Virus record (IMG/VR): IMGVR_UViG_3300024346_000141
Location: 1 to 43,703 of that record
DNA length: 43,703 bases
Origin: a virus
Reading direction: 5' to 3' (one strand)
The notes under the pieces are model-generated. The model was not told where the DNA came from. It did not search any database and saw only the letters and a list, made by a program, of their open reading frames with translations. Position 1 is the stretch's first letter; each line of letters begins with the position of its first letter. Both the position numbers and the translations under genes were made by a program. Positions 30,170 to 35,947 of this stretch are shown here, in pieces.

Positions 30170-30610
30170 ATGAACTTCGACATATTCCAAATGAAATTCC
30201 TTGAGTGGACAGAGAATGTTATAGAGCAGAAAAAAGACGATGGTTTTGCTATCTGTCCGTTTGCCAAAAAGGCACGTCTAGACAATAAAATACAGTTCAT
30301 AGATTGTACAATAGCTACTAGTGAGTTACTTGAATTTGACAAAGAAAAATACGAAATAGGTATTGCTTGGTTAGGTGATGATGCGAACATGGCTATCATT
30401 GATGAAGTTCTAGAGCTTTATAAAGCAGAAAACCCGGACCTATTATACTTTACAAGTACAACAGATTCAGGCTATTTTGCTAAGAACTTTACTAATTGTG
30501 TTTTTATTCAACTGAGGGGCGATATAGATAATCGTAGAGAACAGTTACATAAAACCAAGTACTATGACAGTTGGCCAGAGCATTACTATAAAATAATAAC
30601 CGGACATTAA
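30170..30610 (+). CDS. Conserved unknown protein with a CPFA motif (146 aa)
   Basis: The protein has FLEWTENVIEQ followed by ICPFAKKARLDNKIQF (residues 28-43). This order, a helix with W, then CPFA, then a basic stretch and a strand, recalls the bacterial DUF1415 family, although the match covers only the N-terminal third and is by eye. The remainder has no motif I recognise. It is driven by the late promoter at 30,046 through a leader with two hairpins; the ATG lacks a clear ribosome binding site. Its stop codon overlaps that of the convergent ORF on the other strand. Function unknown. Confidence 0.7.
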   Translation: MNFDIFQMKFLEWTENVIEQKKDDGFAICPFAKKARLDNKIQFIDCTIATSELLEFDKEKYEIGIAWLGDDANMAIIDEVLELYKAENPDLLYFTSTTDSGYFAKNFTNCVFIQLRGDIDNRREQLHKTKYYDSWPEHYYKIITGH

Positions 30611-30864
30611 CTGCGTTTATTCATTTCCTCTGTACGCTTATTCATTCTCTCGATCAACATCTGAACAGCCGGCAAAGGCATAGTCATGATTTCATGATAA
30701 CCAACGGCACCACCACTATATAATACTATGTCTATGTAGCTTTCTTCAACGGCTTTTCTCTGCTCGTCATAGCGTTCTACAATTTCTTGAATCTCCAACG
30801 GCTGACTAGTGGATATCAACCTACGAAAAAATTTGACACATCCAGTTCTACTTCTTGTGTCCAT
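30607..30864 (-). CDS. -1-frame extension of gp26 (probable frameshift product; gp51-like position)
   Basis: The open frame from 30,864 to 30,607 overlaps the last 49 bases of gp26. Its apparent start (ATG at 30,864) has no ribosome binding site and lies within gp26 coding sequence. At 30,834-30,828 the frames meet at the heptamer A AAT TTT, read in the gp26 zero frame, with a stem-loop 6 bases later. A -1 slip would add 73 residues (from codon 13 of this frame, FRRLISTSQ onward) to gp26 residues 1-275, making a 348-residue fusion. The extension contains a helical stretch (EIQEIVERYDEQRKAVEES) and MPLPAVQMLIERMN. The layout resembles lambda G/GT tail chaperones beside a tape measure. Separate translation remains possible. 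Confidence 0.7.
   Translation of the reverse strand: MDTRSRTGCVKFFRRLISTSQPLEIQEIVERYDEQRKAVEESYIDIVLYSGGAVGYHEIMTMPLPAVQMLIERMNKRTEEMNKRS
30800..30834 (-). promoter_or_regulatory. Programmed -1 ribosomal frameshift signal
   Basis: The slippery heptamer AAATTTT (30,834-30,828) is in the correct phase (codons TCA AAT TTT) for tandem tRNA slippage. After a 6-base spacer, GGTTGA (30,821-30,816) pairs with TCAGCC (30,805-30,800) around a 10-base loop. The gp26 stop TGA lies within the 5' arm of the stem. Confidence 0.65.
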
Positions 30865-31652
30865 TCATTAGCACATTCAATACACTTGGCTTTGAAGTTT
30901 GTATCCATGCCATCATCACTTAGTGCTTCAATTCTATCTTTGATTGCATCGTGATCTTTCTTACTGATATTTTGTAACCACTCCCGAATCATATCTTTGT
31001 CTACAATAACATCTGAACTGTCAGGTGCTTGTACACTTGTGATACAACTTGTGATAACATCAACTGTTAGCGTAGCAAGTTCAACAAAAGTTTCTCCAAA
31101 CATTTTGGACTTAGTGTTGTCATCAGCTTCACTGGCAATTAGGCTATCAACCATCTTCTGTCTTTTGATGTTTTGTATCTGCATGAGAGTTCTGTCATCA
31201 ATAGTATAGGGTCTAACAATTATTTTAAAGTTACTGGCTAGTCTTACTTCTGTAGCAAACTCAACTTCTTTAATTTGTGATAGTAGTTGAGCACTATCAA
31301 TTGTCAATTGATTAAGGTGTTTACATTTTGGGCATTCAAGATCTACGTCAAACTTGTTACCATACGTTGCTTGTCTAATAGCAATTAATAGTACAAGTAG
31401 ATCGTTAACTGGAATCTGTCTGGGATTTTGTATATCCGGACAGCATGATTCGAGTAGTGCAACATTGGCTTCTCCGTTAAACAACGCATCAGGCGTTTTT
31501 GTTAACAGTTCGTCTCTGGCACTCATAGGATACACGGCTAGTTCATTATCAACACTTAATTTTGGCTTTGGATCGTACCATTTCGCCCCTGAAGGCAATG
31601 ATACAAACACAGCAGGCTTTTTATATGCCTGGATTAGAGGATTTTCTGACAT
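30816..31652 (-). CDS. 26: Baseplate hub/tail assembly protein gp26
   Basis: This is the T4-like gp26 family, needed for hub and tail assembly. The N-terminus (KPAVFVSLPSGAKWY), NELAVYPMSARDELLTKTPD (about 36-55) with LFNGEA, and the helix DLLVLLIAIRQATYG (84-98) are the family hallmarks. Two CxxC pairs, Cys107/Cys110 (ECPKCKH) and Cys257/Cys260 (CIEC), could bind one zinc. The second pair lies just before the frameshift site, so both the short and the fused product keep it. At 278 residues it is longer than T4 gp26 (208). A CGGAGA site and a late promoter about 46 bases upstream drive it, divergent from the tape-measure genes. Confidence 0.8.
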   Translation of the reverse strand: MSENPLIQAYKKPAVFVSLPSGAKWYDPKPKLSVDNELAVYPMSARDELLTKTPDALFNGEANVALLESCCPDIQNPRQIPVNDLLVLLIAIRQATYGNKFDVDLECPKCKHLNQLTIDSAQLLSQIKEVEFATEVRLASNFKIIVRPYTIDDRTLMQIQNIKRQKMVDSLIASEADDNTKSKMFGETFVELATLTVDVITSCITSVQAPDSSDVIVDKDMIREWLQNISKKDHDAIKDRIEALSDDGMDTNFKAKCIECANEWTQEVELDVSNFFVG

Positions 31653-31725: not shown

Positions 31726-33822
31726 ATGGATTTAGGACAAATTGCTAGTATATTTTCTTCTTTGCCCAGCTGGGTTTCAGAAGATACTATGCAAGGTATA
31801 TTGAGAAGTCAACGAGGTAACGTTGATGCCAATATAGCCAAGATCAATAAGATTTCTGCTAAATGGGGTTTAGATCCTATTGAATCACAAGTTGACGATA
31901 TAATTGACAACAAACAAAAAGGCATGCAGGATACTAAGCGTATGTCTGCACAGATGAAACAAGACGTAAATGATCTAATGCGAGAAAACGATCCTCTCTT
32001 AGGCCTGACAGCTGGTATTACTATGGTTGGTGGAGCAATGGGACAAGTCGGCAAGGGCTTTGACTTCCTAACAGGCAATAAAGCAAGTAAGTTTCTCAAA
32101 AAATCATTAGGTAAAGATTTATTAAAAGCAGGAAACAAAGGGCTAGGTGCTCTGGCGGGAGTCGCCGGATTTACTGCTGGTACAAGTGCTTTCATAATGA
32201 GTTTGGAACGAGATATTCGTGCAATGGTTGAAATGAGCGTATTCACTAATTCAGCTGAAATGCAATATATTAAAGAAGCCGCCAATGGTGTTGGTATGAG
32301 TATGGTGGAAGCCACAAAGATGTTATCGGGCAGTAGTGCAATGGTAGCCTATGTCGGAGACGGTGATGTAGCATCAGGCACACTAAAGTTTTTAAAGTTT
32401 GCAAGTAAAATAGAAGAAATGAACACCAACGGTAAAGGTGGTGTTAGTGACTTTGGTTTGGGTGTAGATCAACTTGCACAAAGAATGGCACAGGAAACGG
32501 CATTGCTATATGATCTAAATGAATTGACAGAAAGAGACTTAACTGCCAAGGGACAAGCATATAAAAACTTTGAAACAATGGAAGGCATGATGACCTATAT
32601 GGCAGACTGGACCGGCGTTAGAAAGAGTGAATTACTTGACCAGGGTATGCAAGCTGATGCAATGATAGATTATAGAATGGCTTTAAAACAAAACAAAGCA
32701 CATTTGGAAGAGGCATATGGCGAAGGCACTATGATGGCAGTCAATAATGGCAGAAGAAGATTAGCAATGCAACTAGCAATGGTTCCAGAACTGCAAAAAG
32801 AACTATTGTCTGCTGTTGATAAAACAGTAAACGACATACAATATAATGGAGGCGATTCAGTAATCTCCTTTAACCAAGAATTTTTAGATAAGATGAATGT
32901 CCTGGATCCAAACTTAGCAAACAGAATGACAAAACTTGTTAGTGATATAAGCACAGGACAATTTAAAGATGATCCAATACAACAGGATATAGAAGTTAAG
33001 AGACTATTAAAGGACATCAGTAATGCAAAAACTGTAGATGGTCCTGGAGCAATGTTTAAAGAAGTTAACTCATTAATTGCCACAACTAATCTAGTTCCTA
33101 ATCTTGATATGTCAGATGCTGAACAAAGAGAAAAAGCGGCAAGTGTAAAAGAGAAAGCTGAACAAGGCGATGTAATGGTTGATTCAGTAGATAATACTCG
33201 TAAAGCACTACGTCAAGGTGTTACTGCTATTGCACCGTCAACAAAAACAGTAGTTGATTTATTTGGTGACCTGACAGGTGGTGTGCAATTGTTTGGTAAA
33301 GCAGTATCCTACATTCCAGGATTTGAACAGATGCAAAGTGCTCTGGGAGAAGATGCAATTGGAAAGTATCGTGTTGATCCAAGTACAACATATGGTCCAC
33401 AGATGTCTGATTTTGCTGATCCTACTCCAGGACCAAAACGAAATAGAAGAAAAAGACGTAGAGGTGATAGGTCAGGTGTAACCGGCGAACCAGTAACAGT
33501 ACCAATCACTGCTACTGATCCAAAAGAAGAAAACAGCTTCCTAGGAAATATATGGGATAAGATTACAGGCAAGTCTGATGAGAAAGAAGACTCTCGAATA
33601 GCAGGATTAAAGACACCAGTTCTAACAGCAAAACTTGAAGAAGTCAAGAAGAAAATTTCAGACTTGGAAAAATTAAAGGGTTCAGCTAAAAACCGTGGAG
33701 AACGTGGAAAGATATTTAGAGCAATCAAATCCCATGAAAGAGCAATGGCTAGAATACTGGCTGACATAGAAGCAAAGACAAAACAATCAACACTTTCGGA
33801 GACAGTAGAAAATGGCAAGTAG
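31726..33822 (+). CDS. Tape-measure-like tail protein, first of a pair (698 aa)
   Basis: This is probably one part of the tail-length ruler that fills the tail tube. It has a helical, Lys/Glu/Met-rich composition with two Gly/Ala-rich hydrophobic segments (LLGLTAGITMVGGAMG at about 86-101 and GLGALAGVAGFTAG at about 139-152) and a basic C-terminal linker (KRNRRKRRRGD) before a coiled coil. Its N-terminus, LPSWVSEDTMQGIL, is paralogous in pattern to VPAWATEQTLQSVA in the next gene. T4 gp29 (590 aa) is the functional counterpart; the identity is inferred from composition, position and the neighbour's C-terminus. It overlaps the second gene by 11 bases. A weak AGGTAG site precedes the ATG. Confidence 0.6.
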   Translation: MDLGQIASIFSSLPSWVSEDTMQGILRSQRGNVDANIAKINKISAKWGLDPIESQVDDIIDNKQKGMQDTKRMSAQMKQDVNDLMRENDPLLGLTAGITMVGGAMGQVGKGFDFLTGNKASKFLKKSLGKDLLKAGNKGLGALAGVAGFTAGTSAFIMSLERDIRAMVEMSVFTNSAEMQYIKEAANGVGMSMVEATKMLSGSSAMVAYVGDGDVASGTLKFLKFASKIEEMNTNGKGGVSDFGLGVDQLAQRMAQETALLYDLNELTERDLTAKGQAYKNFETMEGMMTYMADWTGVRKSELLDQGMQADAMIDYRMALKQNKAHLEEAYGEGTMMAVNNGRRRLAMQLAMVPELQKELLSAVDKTVNDIQYNGGDSVISFNQEFLDKMNVLDPNLANRMTKLVSDISTGQFKDDPIQQDIEVKRLLKDISNAKTVDGPGAMFKEVNSLIATTNLVPNLDMSDAEQREKAASVKEKAEQGDVMVDSVDNTRKALRQGVTAIAPSTKTVVDLFGDLTGGVQLFGKAVSYIPGFEQMQSALGEDAIGKYRVDPSTTYGPQMSDFADPTPGPKRNRRKRRRGDRSGVTGEPVTVPITATDPKEENSFLGNIWDKITGKSDEKEDSRIAGLKTPVLTAKLEEVKKKISDLEKLKGSAKNRGERGKIFRAIKSHERAMARILADIEAKTKQSTLSETVENGK

Positions 33823-35947
33823 TTATAATATAAATTTACCTGACGGTTCAAGTCTACCAGTTCCGGCCTGGGCAACAGAACAAACGCTACAATCTGTAGC
33901 ACAAATGCTGAGTAAGAATAATTTATCAGTAGATATTATCACTGATCTAATGCAAGAAAATAATATGGACGTAAGTGATGTTGCGGCTAAGATGTCACAA
34001 CTTGCTGATGTAGATAAACAAGAAGCAAAACAAAGACTACAAGAAGCAAAAAAACAAGGCAAAAACTTCGGTGCTAAACTAACAGGTGTATTAGACAAGT
34101 TTAACAATACAGAAAAACCACTAAGCAGTTTAGTTGATATGGCTACTGGATTAGGAAAAGAGATAAAAGACGGTGCAAGTAGTTTTGGTAAAGACAAATC
34201 AAAAATAAGTAAAGGCTCTGGTGTAATGAGTGGTGTCCTGGATAAACTGGGCAAGGGCATGGGAGTAGCAGGTGATATTGCCGTTGTATATGCTGGTTTC
34301 ATGGCTGGTAAAGCAGAAGAATTTGCCAAAGCACAACAAAATATGATTGATAGTGGTGCTATCTTCTTTGAAAATGCGGCGGCCTTTAATGCACTACAAA
34401 CACAGGCCAGAGATGCAGGAATTGGTTATGAGAAGTTTACAACTATTGTGGGTAACTTCGGAAGTGCAATGGTTGGACTAGGTGGCAACGTTAGTAATGG
34501 TGCTGTGGAGTTTGCCGTTCTAGCAGAAAAACTAAATGATGCAAGTGACCAGTTCGGAGACTTTGGTATGACAAGTGAAAACCTAGCAGAAGGTTTTGCT
34601 GAGTTTATTGAAACACAACGTATGGCCGGAAATATAGATAGAACACAAGTAGGATACGGAGACAAGTTAGTCAAAGCATATCAGGAATTATTAATTGAAA
34701 CAGGTTCATATGCAAGTGCCACAGCGTTCACAAGAAAACAGATGTTGGAATCATACACAGAGGCTATGAGTGCTCCGGTATTTGCAGGTACAATGAAAAT
34801 ACTAGACAAACTTGGCGAAACTGGTACTAAAGAGGCAGCTCAACAAATACAAACACAATTAACACTACTCAACAAAGCTGGTGTTACAGATATAGCAGGA
34901 CCGTTACTTGGTGCTTTTGAACAGGCGTTAAGTTCATCAACAGGTGATTTACAAAGTTTTGATATTACTAGTTATCTAGCAGAAAATGGTGGTGAACAAT
35001 TAATCGCAACACTTGATAATGTAAACTCTACTCTGTTAACAGACATCAATACAGCAATCCGTAATGGAGAAAAGATATCTGGAGATATGTTACAGGACTT
35101 GGTTGCGGCATATGAAACTGTTAAGCCTGGAATGGTTATTCCTGCTGGTGCAACAGATGGCCTAATGGGTTATATGAAACGAACTCAAAACCAAATGGAA
35201 GAGTTCCGTTTAAAAACTAAAGCAGTATCTGAGATGTCAGCAGAAGAACGTGCAGGTCTTAAAGAAAAACATAAGAAAGATTTAGAAGGTGCTGGTAAGT
35301 TAACTAAAGTAATGAACGATGTTACTGAAGGATACCTAAAGGCAATGGATGCTCTAACACTTCCAATGGACACGTTTGGATGGGTTCTAGATGGAGTAAC
35401 AACTGGAATAAGCAATGCAACTGGTAATATGGTTGAAGGCATGAGTACAGAGGGTAAGAGTTTTATGCCTGGATATGAGGGATACCATGCCGAAGGTGCA
35501 GCAATGCGTGGTGAAGGCGCATTAGACACACAAAGAAAAATAATGATTGATGGGAAGCCAAATGGACTGAGATCCGGCGGACCTATCGGAGCAGGATCCA
35601 TGGCTCTTGTGGGAGAAGAAGGTCCGGAATTATTACAAATGGGTGATATGGGAGGGATGGTATTCCCTAACAACACATTGAATAATTTGGTTGACATGTA
35701 TAAAGAAAGCATGTATAATACAGATAATAAAGCTATGGTATCTCCCAATGTCACTTCCTCGGAATTGAATATGGCCTTTGGTGAAGGAATGGGCGATACT
35801 TCGGAATCCGGTGAAGAATACACGGATCTAGAGGATATTCTAAGGATGAAAGAAGAAACAGTAAACACTCTTAGAAGCCTCGACGGTGTATTAGCCGGTA
35901 TGTTTGCTCTAAGCGAACAGCGAACAATTGCTTCTGAGATGTCTTAA
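33812..35947 (+). CDS. Tape-measure-like tail protein, second of a pair (711 aa)
   Basis: The helical body contains a Gly/Ala hydrophobic segment (GVAGDIAVVYAGFMAG, about 151-166) and ends with the signature common at the C-terminus of many phage tape measures: GGPIGAGSMALVGEEGPELL (about 589-608), then FPNNTLNNL. The N-terminal VPAWATEQTLQSVA shares a pattern with the preceding protein, suggesting an old duplication. The start codon overlaps the end of that gene, so both are made together in a coupled way. It lies directly before the portal gene. I infer that the two proteins share the tape-measure role of T4 gp29; one could instead be an internal or ejected protein. Confidence 0.65.
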   Translation: MASSYNINLPDGSSLPVPAWATEQTLQSVAQMLSKNNLSVDIITDLMQENNMDVSDVAAKMSQLADVDKQEAKQRLQEAKKQGKNFGAKLTGVLDKFNNTEKPLSSLVDMATGLGKEIKDGASSFGKDKSKISKGSGVMSGVLDKLGKGMGVAGDIAVVYAGFMAGKAEEFAKAQQNMIDSGAIFFENAAAFNALQTQARDAGIGYEKFTTIVGNFGSAMVGLGGNVSNGAVEFAVLAEKLNDASDQFGDFGMTSENLAEGFAEFIETQRMAGNIDRTQVGYGDKLVKAYQELLIETGSYASATAFTRKQMLESYTEAMSAPVFAGTMKILDKLGETGTKEAAQQIQTQLTLLNKAGVTDIAGPLLGAFEQALSSSTGDLQSFDITSYLAENGGEQLIATLDNVNSTLLTDINTAIRNGEKISGDMLQDLVAAYETVKPGMVIPAGATDGLMGYMKRTQNQMEEFRLKTKAVSEMSAEERAGLKEKHKKDLEGAGKLTKVMNDVTEGYLKAMDALTLPMDTFGWVLDGVTTGISNATGNMVEGMSTEGKSFMPGYEGYHAEGAAMRGEGALDTQRKIMIDGKPNGLRSGGPIGAGSMALVGEEGPELLQMGDMGGMVFPNNTLNNLVDMYKESMYNTDNKAMVSPNVTSSELNMAFGEGMGDTSESGEEYTDLEDILRMKEETVNTLRSLDGVLAGMFALSEQRTIASEMS

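Follow-up and report, generated by a model that had tools for sequence, protein, structure and literature searches.

The 43,703-base virus record IMGVR_UViG_3300024346_000141 (positions 1 to 43,703; this whole stretch is referred to as the window) carried a gene for the T4-like protein gp26, and a programmed −1 frameshift at the 3′ end of this gene, giving a short and a long form of the protein, was very likely real, as judged from the comparison of gp26 gene ends among relatives. The slip would probably occur at the heptamer T TTT TTC more than at the overlapping A AAT TTT, and the resulting two proteins likely served as a pair of tail assembly chaperones. Frameshifting of this kind was already known, and the window locus represented a well-conserved further case; what may be new are lineage-specific stimulators of the frameshift, and that the cyanophage gene gp51 has likely been mistaken for a gene in its own right.

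gp26 and its −1 extension in the window

All features of gp26 and its extension lay on the minus strand (Table 1). The gp26 protein matched PF12322 (T4_baseplate) over residues 47-276 (E 8.9e-17; 61.9 bits, Pfam curated cut-off 24.5) and the PHROGs family phrog_150 (baseplate hub; E 5.2e-22). Its gene ended in TCA AAT TTT TTC GTA GGT TGA, in which two heptamers of the form X XXY YYZ overlapped, A AAT TTT and T TTT TTC, both in phase, and a hairpin followed with the arms GGTTGAT (30821..30815) and GTCAGCC (30806..30800) and a loop of 8 nucleotides (nt). The −1 frame terminated at TAA 30609..30607, and the long form would comprise 276 + 72 = 348 amino acids (aa), with the same peptide SNFFRRL... 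whichever heptamer slips; this agreed with an earlier note made from the window sequence, which had proposed a 348-residue fusion beside the 278-residue gp26. That note had placed the slip at A AAT TTT, upstream of a 6-bp stem and 73 open codons. This heptamer was indeed present and correctly phased, and the gp26 stop did fall within the 5′ arm of the stem, but the conserved site was T TTT TTC one codon downstream, the stem had 7 bp, and the window's own extension had 72 codons (in the near-identical locus L001, the −1 frame had 73 codons after A AAT TTT, 72 after T TTT TTC, and 70 beyond the gp26 stop).

We infer that most ribosomes would terminate at the gp26 TGA to give the 278-aa short form, and that a minority would slip back one base at T TTT TTC, where tRNA-Phe could pair with both TTT and TTC, helped by the hairpin just downstream that holds the gp26 stop; the slipped ribosomes would then read 72 further codons, so that the long form has 348 aa. 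If the pair acts like lambda gpG/gpGT, the tape measure protein would be coated by many short and few long copies, the helical C-terminal domain would recruit tail tube subunits, and both forms would leave before tail completion.

The TAA of the extension overlapped, tail-to-tail, the stop of a convergent plus-strand open reading frame (ORF) at 30170..30610, leaving no intergenic space; the extension thus occupied what would otherwise be an intergenic gap.

Table 1. Features at and near the gp26 gene end in the window
Feature	Position	Strand	Remark
gp26, short tail assembly chaperone (TAC-N)	30816..31652	(-)	278 aa; Pfam T4_baseplate and phrog_150; chaperone role likely
T TTT TTC slippery heptamer, conserved slip site	30825..30831	(-)	In phase; 109/114 distinct relatives
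A AAT TTT heptamer, possible second slip position	30828..30834	(-)	In phase; lineage-specific
gp26 stop TGA	30816..30818	(-)	Inside 5′ arm of hairpin (sequence)
7-bp hairpin GGTTGAT/GTCAGCC, probable stimulator	30800..30821	(-)	Core pairs in 10/10 aligned sequences
−1 frame extension, putative C-terminal part of long form (TAC-NC)	30607..30825	(-)	72 codons + TAA
Candidate tape measure, 698-aa ORF divergent from gp26	31726..33822	(+)	Position between gp26 and portal
Second candidate tape measure, 711-aa ORF	33812..35947	(+)	Weak blastp to RaK2 protein

Conservation of the slip site among relatives

The gp26 gene ends were collected in several rounds: (i) an IMG/VR scan with gp26 gave 18 loci, all of which (18/18) had an in-phase T TTT TTC and a −1 frame open for 70-79 codons beyond the gp26 stop; (ii) tblastn against named phages matched 63 records, and 14 jumbo-phage records picked to span this list all had the slip site (12 T TTT TTC and 2 T TTT TTT) with a −1 frame open for 58-76 codons beyond the gp26 stop; and (iii) a search with T4 gp26 matched 1,275 records with 60 listed, of which six diverse ones besides T4 were examined, and the slip site was present in four (T TTT TTC in IC12, phiAS5, and Sf-FS3, and T TTT TTG in RL38J1) and absent from Aes508 and Cygsa01. 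Further scans, one of them covering the best 80 of at least 591 matches, brought the total to 169 loci; exclusion of four (T4, the window's own locus, and two ending before the gp26 end) left 165 in which the gp26 end could be read. Some contigs were present twice, and merging of identical gp26 ends left 114 distinct rows, 63 of them from cyanophages.

The slip site was found in 112/114 distinct rows (T TTT TTC in 109, T TTT TTT in 2, and T TTT TTG in 1; none in 2), and all 110 slip-bearing rows with an uncut end had a −1 extension of 58-81 codons after the slip. The distance from the slip to the short-frame stop varied from 3 to 13 codons over all rows, and thus the gp26 stop shifted while the slip site and the −1 frame persisted. 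Cluster counts gave a fairer measure, because cyanophages dominated the rows: when the rows with 190 or more aa read (112 rows) were clustered at 90% identity, 56 clusters resulted (52 with T TTT TTC, 2 with T TTT TTT, 1 with T TTT TTG, and 1 with none), and at 50% identity the slip site was found in 17/18 clusters. The conservation of heptamer and overlap that the earlier note had proposed to look for among marine T4-like phages was therefore borne out well beyond marine phages; what the note had named as counter-evidence, a downstream ORF with its own start and no heptamer, occurred in one relative, Cygsa01, where we take it to have arisen secondarily.

A AAT TTT occurred in 22/114 rows and 14/56 clusters, and it was absent, for example, from L010, L013, L014, L016, L017, and all 63 cyanophage rows; it was rejected as a general slip site and kept as a possible second position in the window clade. 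T4 gene 26 retained the Phe-Phe (FF) dipeptide near its end, coded TTC TTT, and contained no heptamer.

The frequency of such sites within the window was evaluated in 28 ORFs hand-picked as window genes (13,335 codons). These ORFs contained 15 FF dipeptides, most commonly coded TTC TTT (9/15), and T|TTT|TTC coding was found only in that of gp26. There were 41 in-phase heptamers; 3 of them were no more than 15 codons away from the end of their gene, and an extension of at least 20 codons followed the two of gp26 only. Several other window genes had long −1 frames past their stops, mostly representing the next downstream ORF, and no heptamer led into them. Chance and assembly error were rejected, the site and the extension recurring in separate contigs and in sequenced isolates.

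The extension as a protein domain and its relation to gp51

Conservation of the extension started at the slip itself: FFR was present in 24/24 sequences of alignment A4, and a residue other than R followed FF in PA5oct, IC12, RL38J1, XacN1, and CM1, all outside this alignment. Upstream, the −1 frame was closed by a stop codon lying 3-22 codons from that of gp26 in 111/112 slip-bearing rows (78 codons in RL38J1), and the −1 frame peptides upstream of the slip differed among relatives. The ratio of nonsynonymous to synonymous changes (pN/pS) in the extension was 0.00-0.48 in the 16 pairs tested (0.25 for the window versus L003), which indicated purifying selection, and the extension behaved as a real protein domain. 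Its AlphaFold2 model was helical and confident (predicted local distance difference test score, pLDDT, 88), and comparison of this model with the PDB gave no informative match.

A small ORF at the position of the extension was annotated as baseplate hub assembly catalyst, i.e., with the gp51 label, in cyanophage Sf-FS3 and in Cygsa01. The Sf-FS3 extension matched phrog_634 (T4 gp51, baseplate hub assembly catalyst) with E 7.9e-27, and the cyanophage extension profile matched residues 207-245 at the C-terminus of T4 gp51, which had PF12322 over residues 1-201 followed by this extension-like C-terminus. T4 gp51 was thus composed of a PF12322 domain plus the extension, so that in T4 the long form had its own gene. 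Pfam matches were used here for T4 gp26 and gp51, because profile comparisons of alignment A5 with either of these single proteins aligned poorly. The window extension had no match in PHROGs and matched the cyanophage extension profile weakly (probability 29.5%); the suggestion of a gp51-like tail held clearly only for cyanophages, and the link was weak for the window itself.

Start codons in the −1 frame

Alternatively, the extension could be a small gene in its own right, as the gp51 annotation in cyanophages has it, translated by termination-reinitiation at a start codon overlapping or following the gp26 stop. The scan for start codons covered the −1 frame between its upstream stop and the 15th codon after the slip. 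As a correction to the earlier note, which gave the −1 frame no ribosome-binding site of its own, the window itself did have an upstream ATG at 30864 (85-aa ORF), with no GGAG, GAGG, or AGGA in the preceding 20 bases; in addition, a TTG overlapped the gp26 stop (TTGA). ATG was found within 15 codons after the slip in 63/63 cyanophage rows and was invariant in the 35 aligned, Phosso and Atu_ph07 had ATGA overlaps, and TAATG was present in 121Q and in Cygsa01, the latter without a slip site, all of which would suit reinitiation. The same applied to the window clade, in which TTG occurred within 15 codons after the slip in 10/13 rows and ATG or GTG before the slip in 6/13; none of the 13 rows lacked ATG, GTG, and TTG altogether, a point that counts against the frameshift, as each row offered some start codon, although the codon was not the same one throughout.

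On the other side, no single start codon was common to all 13 rows, the TTG overlapping the stop was replaced by CTG in L015, L161, and L165, and 6/13 rows of the window clade had neither ATG nor GTG. ATG, GTG, and TTG were all missing from the scanned range in 10/18 rows of the L016 clade and in 6/15 of the jumbo set (14 named phages plus L168), and the T run was still kept there. Moreover, the conservation of the −1 peptide from the slip onward and the full fusion seen in T4 gp51 both ran against a small independent gene, and we consider this explanation very improbable. Since starts were absent or unshared in many rows, reinitiation could not replace slippage across the family; it may supplement slippage, above all in cyanophages.

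Two records combined the features differently: 121Q (L029:3205-3429) had the slip site plus a TAATG start at the gp26 stop, and Cygsa01 (L039:2698-2982) had the start only, namely the ATG of TAATG at the gp26 stop. They were possible intermediates between frameshift and separate gene.

Hairpins and other candidate stimulators

The stability test was applied to 10 window-clade sequences (L001, L002, L008, and L014 excluded as near-copies) and 38 distinct cyanophage ones; all stimulator counts came from related loci and did not represent independent events. The 39-nt fold of the window was stable (z-score −2.81), and the 7-bp core helix formed in all 10 aligned window-clade sequences. Two-sided changes were found in 3/9 hairpin pairs, including one core pair (U-A, U-G, C-G) and two outer pairs, the latter each unpaired in 5/10 sequences. 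In a control, sliding the helix lost most of the pairing. All 10 window-clade hairpins were stabler than the mean of shuffles keeping the −1 protein, and 6/10 reached the 5% level. These results point to a conserved hairpin that probably stimulates slippage in this clade. Several observations weigh against that role: (i) the 71- and 101-nt folds of the window were unremarkable (z −0.49 and −1.02), and another structure won at 101 nt; (ii) covariation was modest, with 31-52/500 shuffles reaching four measures and 343/500 the fifth; (iii) 14.7% of synonymous shuffles were as stable as the window's own hairpin, which was not significant alone; and (iv) the spacer to the core stem was only 3 nt when counted from T TTT TTC, against the 6 nt given in the earlier note, which had counted from A AAT TTT.

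Cyanophages had a different hairpin, which enclosed the gp51 ATG and had 84.3% of cells paired. Its covariation score was reached by 0/500 shuffles and its double-change pair count (one) by 497/500; for stability, 22/38 sequences were at the 5% level (mean z −1.84). A hairpin common to all relatives was rejected: stability elsewhere was mixed (mean z −0.76 over 38 rows, which included L057 and L076, cut-off cyanophage loci placed there), and RaK2-like jumbo phages showed no consistent hairpin.

The cyanophage gp26 genes (L037 and L041-L120; e.g., L037:3160-3240) also carried GGAGG in 52/63 distinct rows, each time at a distance of precisely 10 nt upstream of the slip. The Glu codon at this position was GAG in 58/63, versus 345/1,403 elsewhere in the same genes, and 10 nt is the spacing of the dnaX frameshift stimulator. 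No GGAG-type element was seen before the slip in the window clade.

These elements also bear on whether RNA polymerase, instead of the ribosome, slips on the T6 run and yields a frame-changed mRNA. The common element was a run of 6 or 7 T, and sequence alone cannot separate the two mechanisms, the FF codons fixing the phase. However, T6 is shorter than the runs that bacterial polymerase usually needs for slippage, the hairpins downstream in the window clade and in cyanophages look like ribosomal stimulators, and so does the Shine-Dalgarno-like GGAGG before the cyanophage slip; polymerase slippage is accordingly hard to credit.

Probable tail-chaperone function and neighbouring genes

The function of the pair was assessed from structure, annotation, and gene neighbourhood. 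The gp26 model (pLDDT 85.1) gave the HK97 tail assembly chaperone 2ob9 as its first PDB row (Z 6.7, root-mean-square deviation 5.1, 102/107 residues), which exceeded the next row by 1.7 in Z and belongs to the family that the other evidence would lead one to expect. When the gp26 profile was searched against PDB sequences, no match appeared at E up to 1, and six proteins compared with NCBIfam gave none above the cut-offs. Among the matches listed, the T4-type gp26 of Acinetobacter phage Stupor was annotated as tape measure protein assembly chaperone. The tail chaperone genes that Vladimirov and co-workers assigned in T4-like phages are said to be genes 26 and 51.

A 698-aa ORF divergent from gp26 was a candidate tape measure by its position between gp26 and the portal gene, and long ORFs occupied the same position in XaC1, CBB, GAP32, 121Q, and RaK2. 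The adjacent 711-aa ORF was a second candidate by its weak blastp match (E 0.007 in a nine-sequence database) to a RaK2 protein noted as similar to tape measure protein. In the CBB virion, mass spectrometry detected 55 proteins, including the neighbouring CBB_251 with 29 peptides, and CBB_250 (the gp26 homologue) and CBB_249 (the annotated part of the extension) were absent from the 55-protein table (PMC5259590), as expected of a chaperone.

Against a chaperone stood the following: (i) the HK97 match lay below the tool's caution line of Z 8, and by Foldseek alone it had E 5.2 and rank 14; (ii) the candidate tape measures of 698 and 711 aa had no family match below E 0.01 in Pfam or PHROGs; (iii) CBB_250 (L021, 2489-3346) bore the GenBank label 'structural protein', though missing from the virion table; and (iv) the CBB authors stated that some structural proteins may have been missed (PMC5259590).

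The frameshifted forms might otherwise act in baseplate hub assembly, following the old gp26/gp51 label, a role that would be compatible with the frameshift mechanism. The Pfam and PHROGs family labels did read baseplate; set against them were the HK97 tail chaperone as first structural match, the Stupor annotation, and the mention of T4-like tail assembly chaperone genes in passages of the citing papers, genes 26 and 51 being unnamed in those passages. We regard a baseplate hub role as unlikely, and a tail-chaperone role of the gp26 pair as likely, which the natural fusion of a gp26-like domain and the extension in T4 gp51 supported and, more weakly, the HK97 match.

The window had two adjacent ORFs, of 698 and 711 aa, where the RaK2-like records examined had one long virion-protein gene. 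The two shared 22% over 267 aa (E 0.014 in the nine-sequence database), hinting at an old duplication; with this weak similarity only, paralogy of the two candidate tape measures was not accepted.

Implications for annotation

Besides T4, 17/19 annotated records examined had the slip site, and none had gp26 as a joined coding sequence. Of the 17 slip-bearing records, 14 listed the extension as an ORF of its own, hypothetical or predicted, 1 labelled it 'baseplate hub assembly catalyst', and 2 left it unannotated. The finding thus matters for how the genomes of T4-like and jumbo phages are annotated, the long form being missing from the records examined. The relatives also offered a natural gradation for studying how phages set the short-to-long chaperone ratio, with some having the slip site, some both slip site and start codon, some the start codon alone, and some a fused gene that stands separately.

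We give roughly even credence to the full reading, in which ancestral gp26 frameshifting makes the chaperone pair in T4-like phages outside the T4 family, with lineage-specific stimulators around T TTT TTC: (i) a covarying, stop-holding hairpin in the marine clade and (ii) an internal Shine-Dalgarno element of the dnaX type 10 nt upstream in cyanophages, together with a hairpin burying the annotated gp51 start, so that cyanophage 'gp51' would mainly be the frameshift tail rather than an independent gene.

Comparison with known systems

The novelty in T4-like phages implied by the earlier note did not stand, since poly-T frameshift signals in their tail chaperone genes had already been mentioned in print. 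The lambda frameshifted chaperone case is described as widely conserved 'except T4' (PMC5009743); papers citing Vladimirov et al. 2022 credit it with identifying tail chaperone genes in T4-like phages, one of them mentions poly-T signals for −1 frameshifting in the TAC-N genes of such phages, and for some of these phages a short gene accompanied by a separate, fused one is described there. Among the papers listed, the literature search on jumbo-phage or cyanophage frameshifting yielded no title or abstract on this locus, and the word 'frameshift' was not found in PMC7824862, PMC11273794, PMC6102473, PMC7247149, PMC12619734, or PMC5259590.

Compared to lambda gpG/gpGT and the HK97 chaperone, the likeness of gp26 lay in its first PDB row. 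It differed in its length, roughly 2.6-fold that of the HK97 chain, in having two CxxC pairs and no PDB sequence match, and in being divergent from the candidate tape measures. At the chaperone locus of Vandenendeviridae, compared by description only through Pseudomonas phage Adele, a −1 frameshift is likewise described, at a T-rich GTTTTT site, with the downstream ORF annotated as a separate gene (PMC12846349), but these phages are not T4-like. T4 gp26 and gp51 both had PF12322, gp51 representing the gp26-like domain plus the C-terminal extension; in contrast to the window, T4 gene 26 coded its FF without a heptamer, and the fusion was a separate gene on the other strand. RaK2-like jumbo phages (RaK2, 121Q, GAP32, CBB, and Munch) harbored the slip site and the −1 extension as in the window, with gp26 adjoining a long virion-protein gene and, in 4/5 records, an annotated portal gene; they differed from the window clade in the hairpin, and their records gave a separate small ORF or nothing for the extension, never a joined coding sequence.
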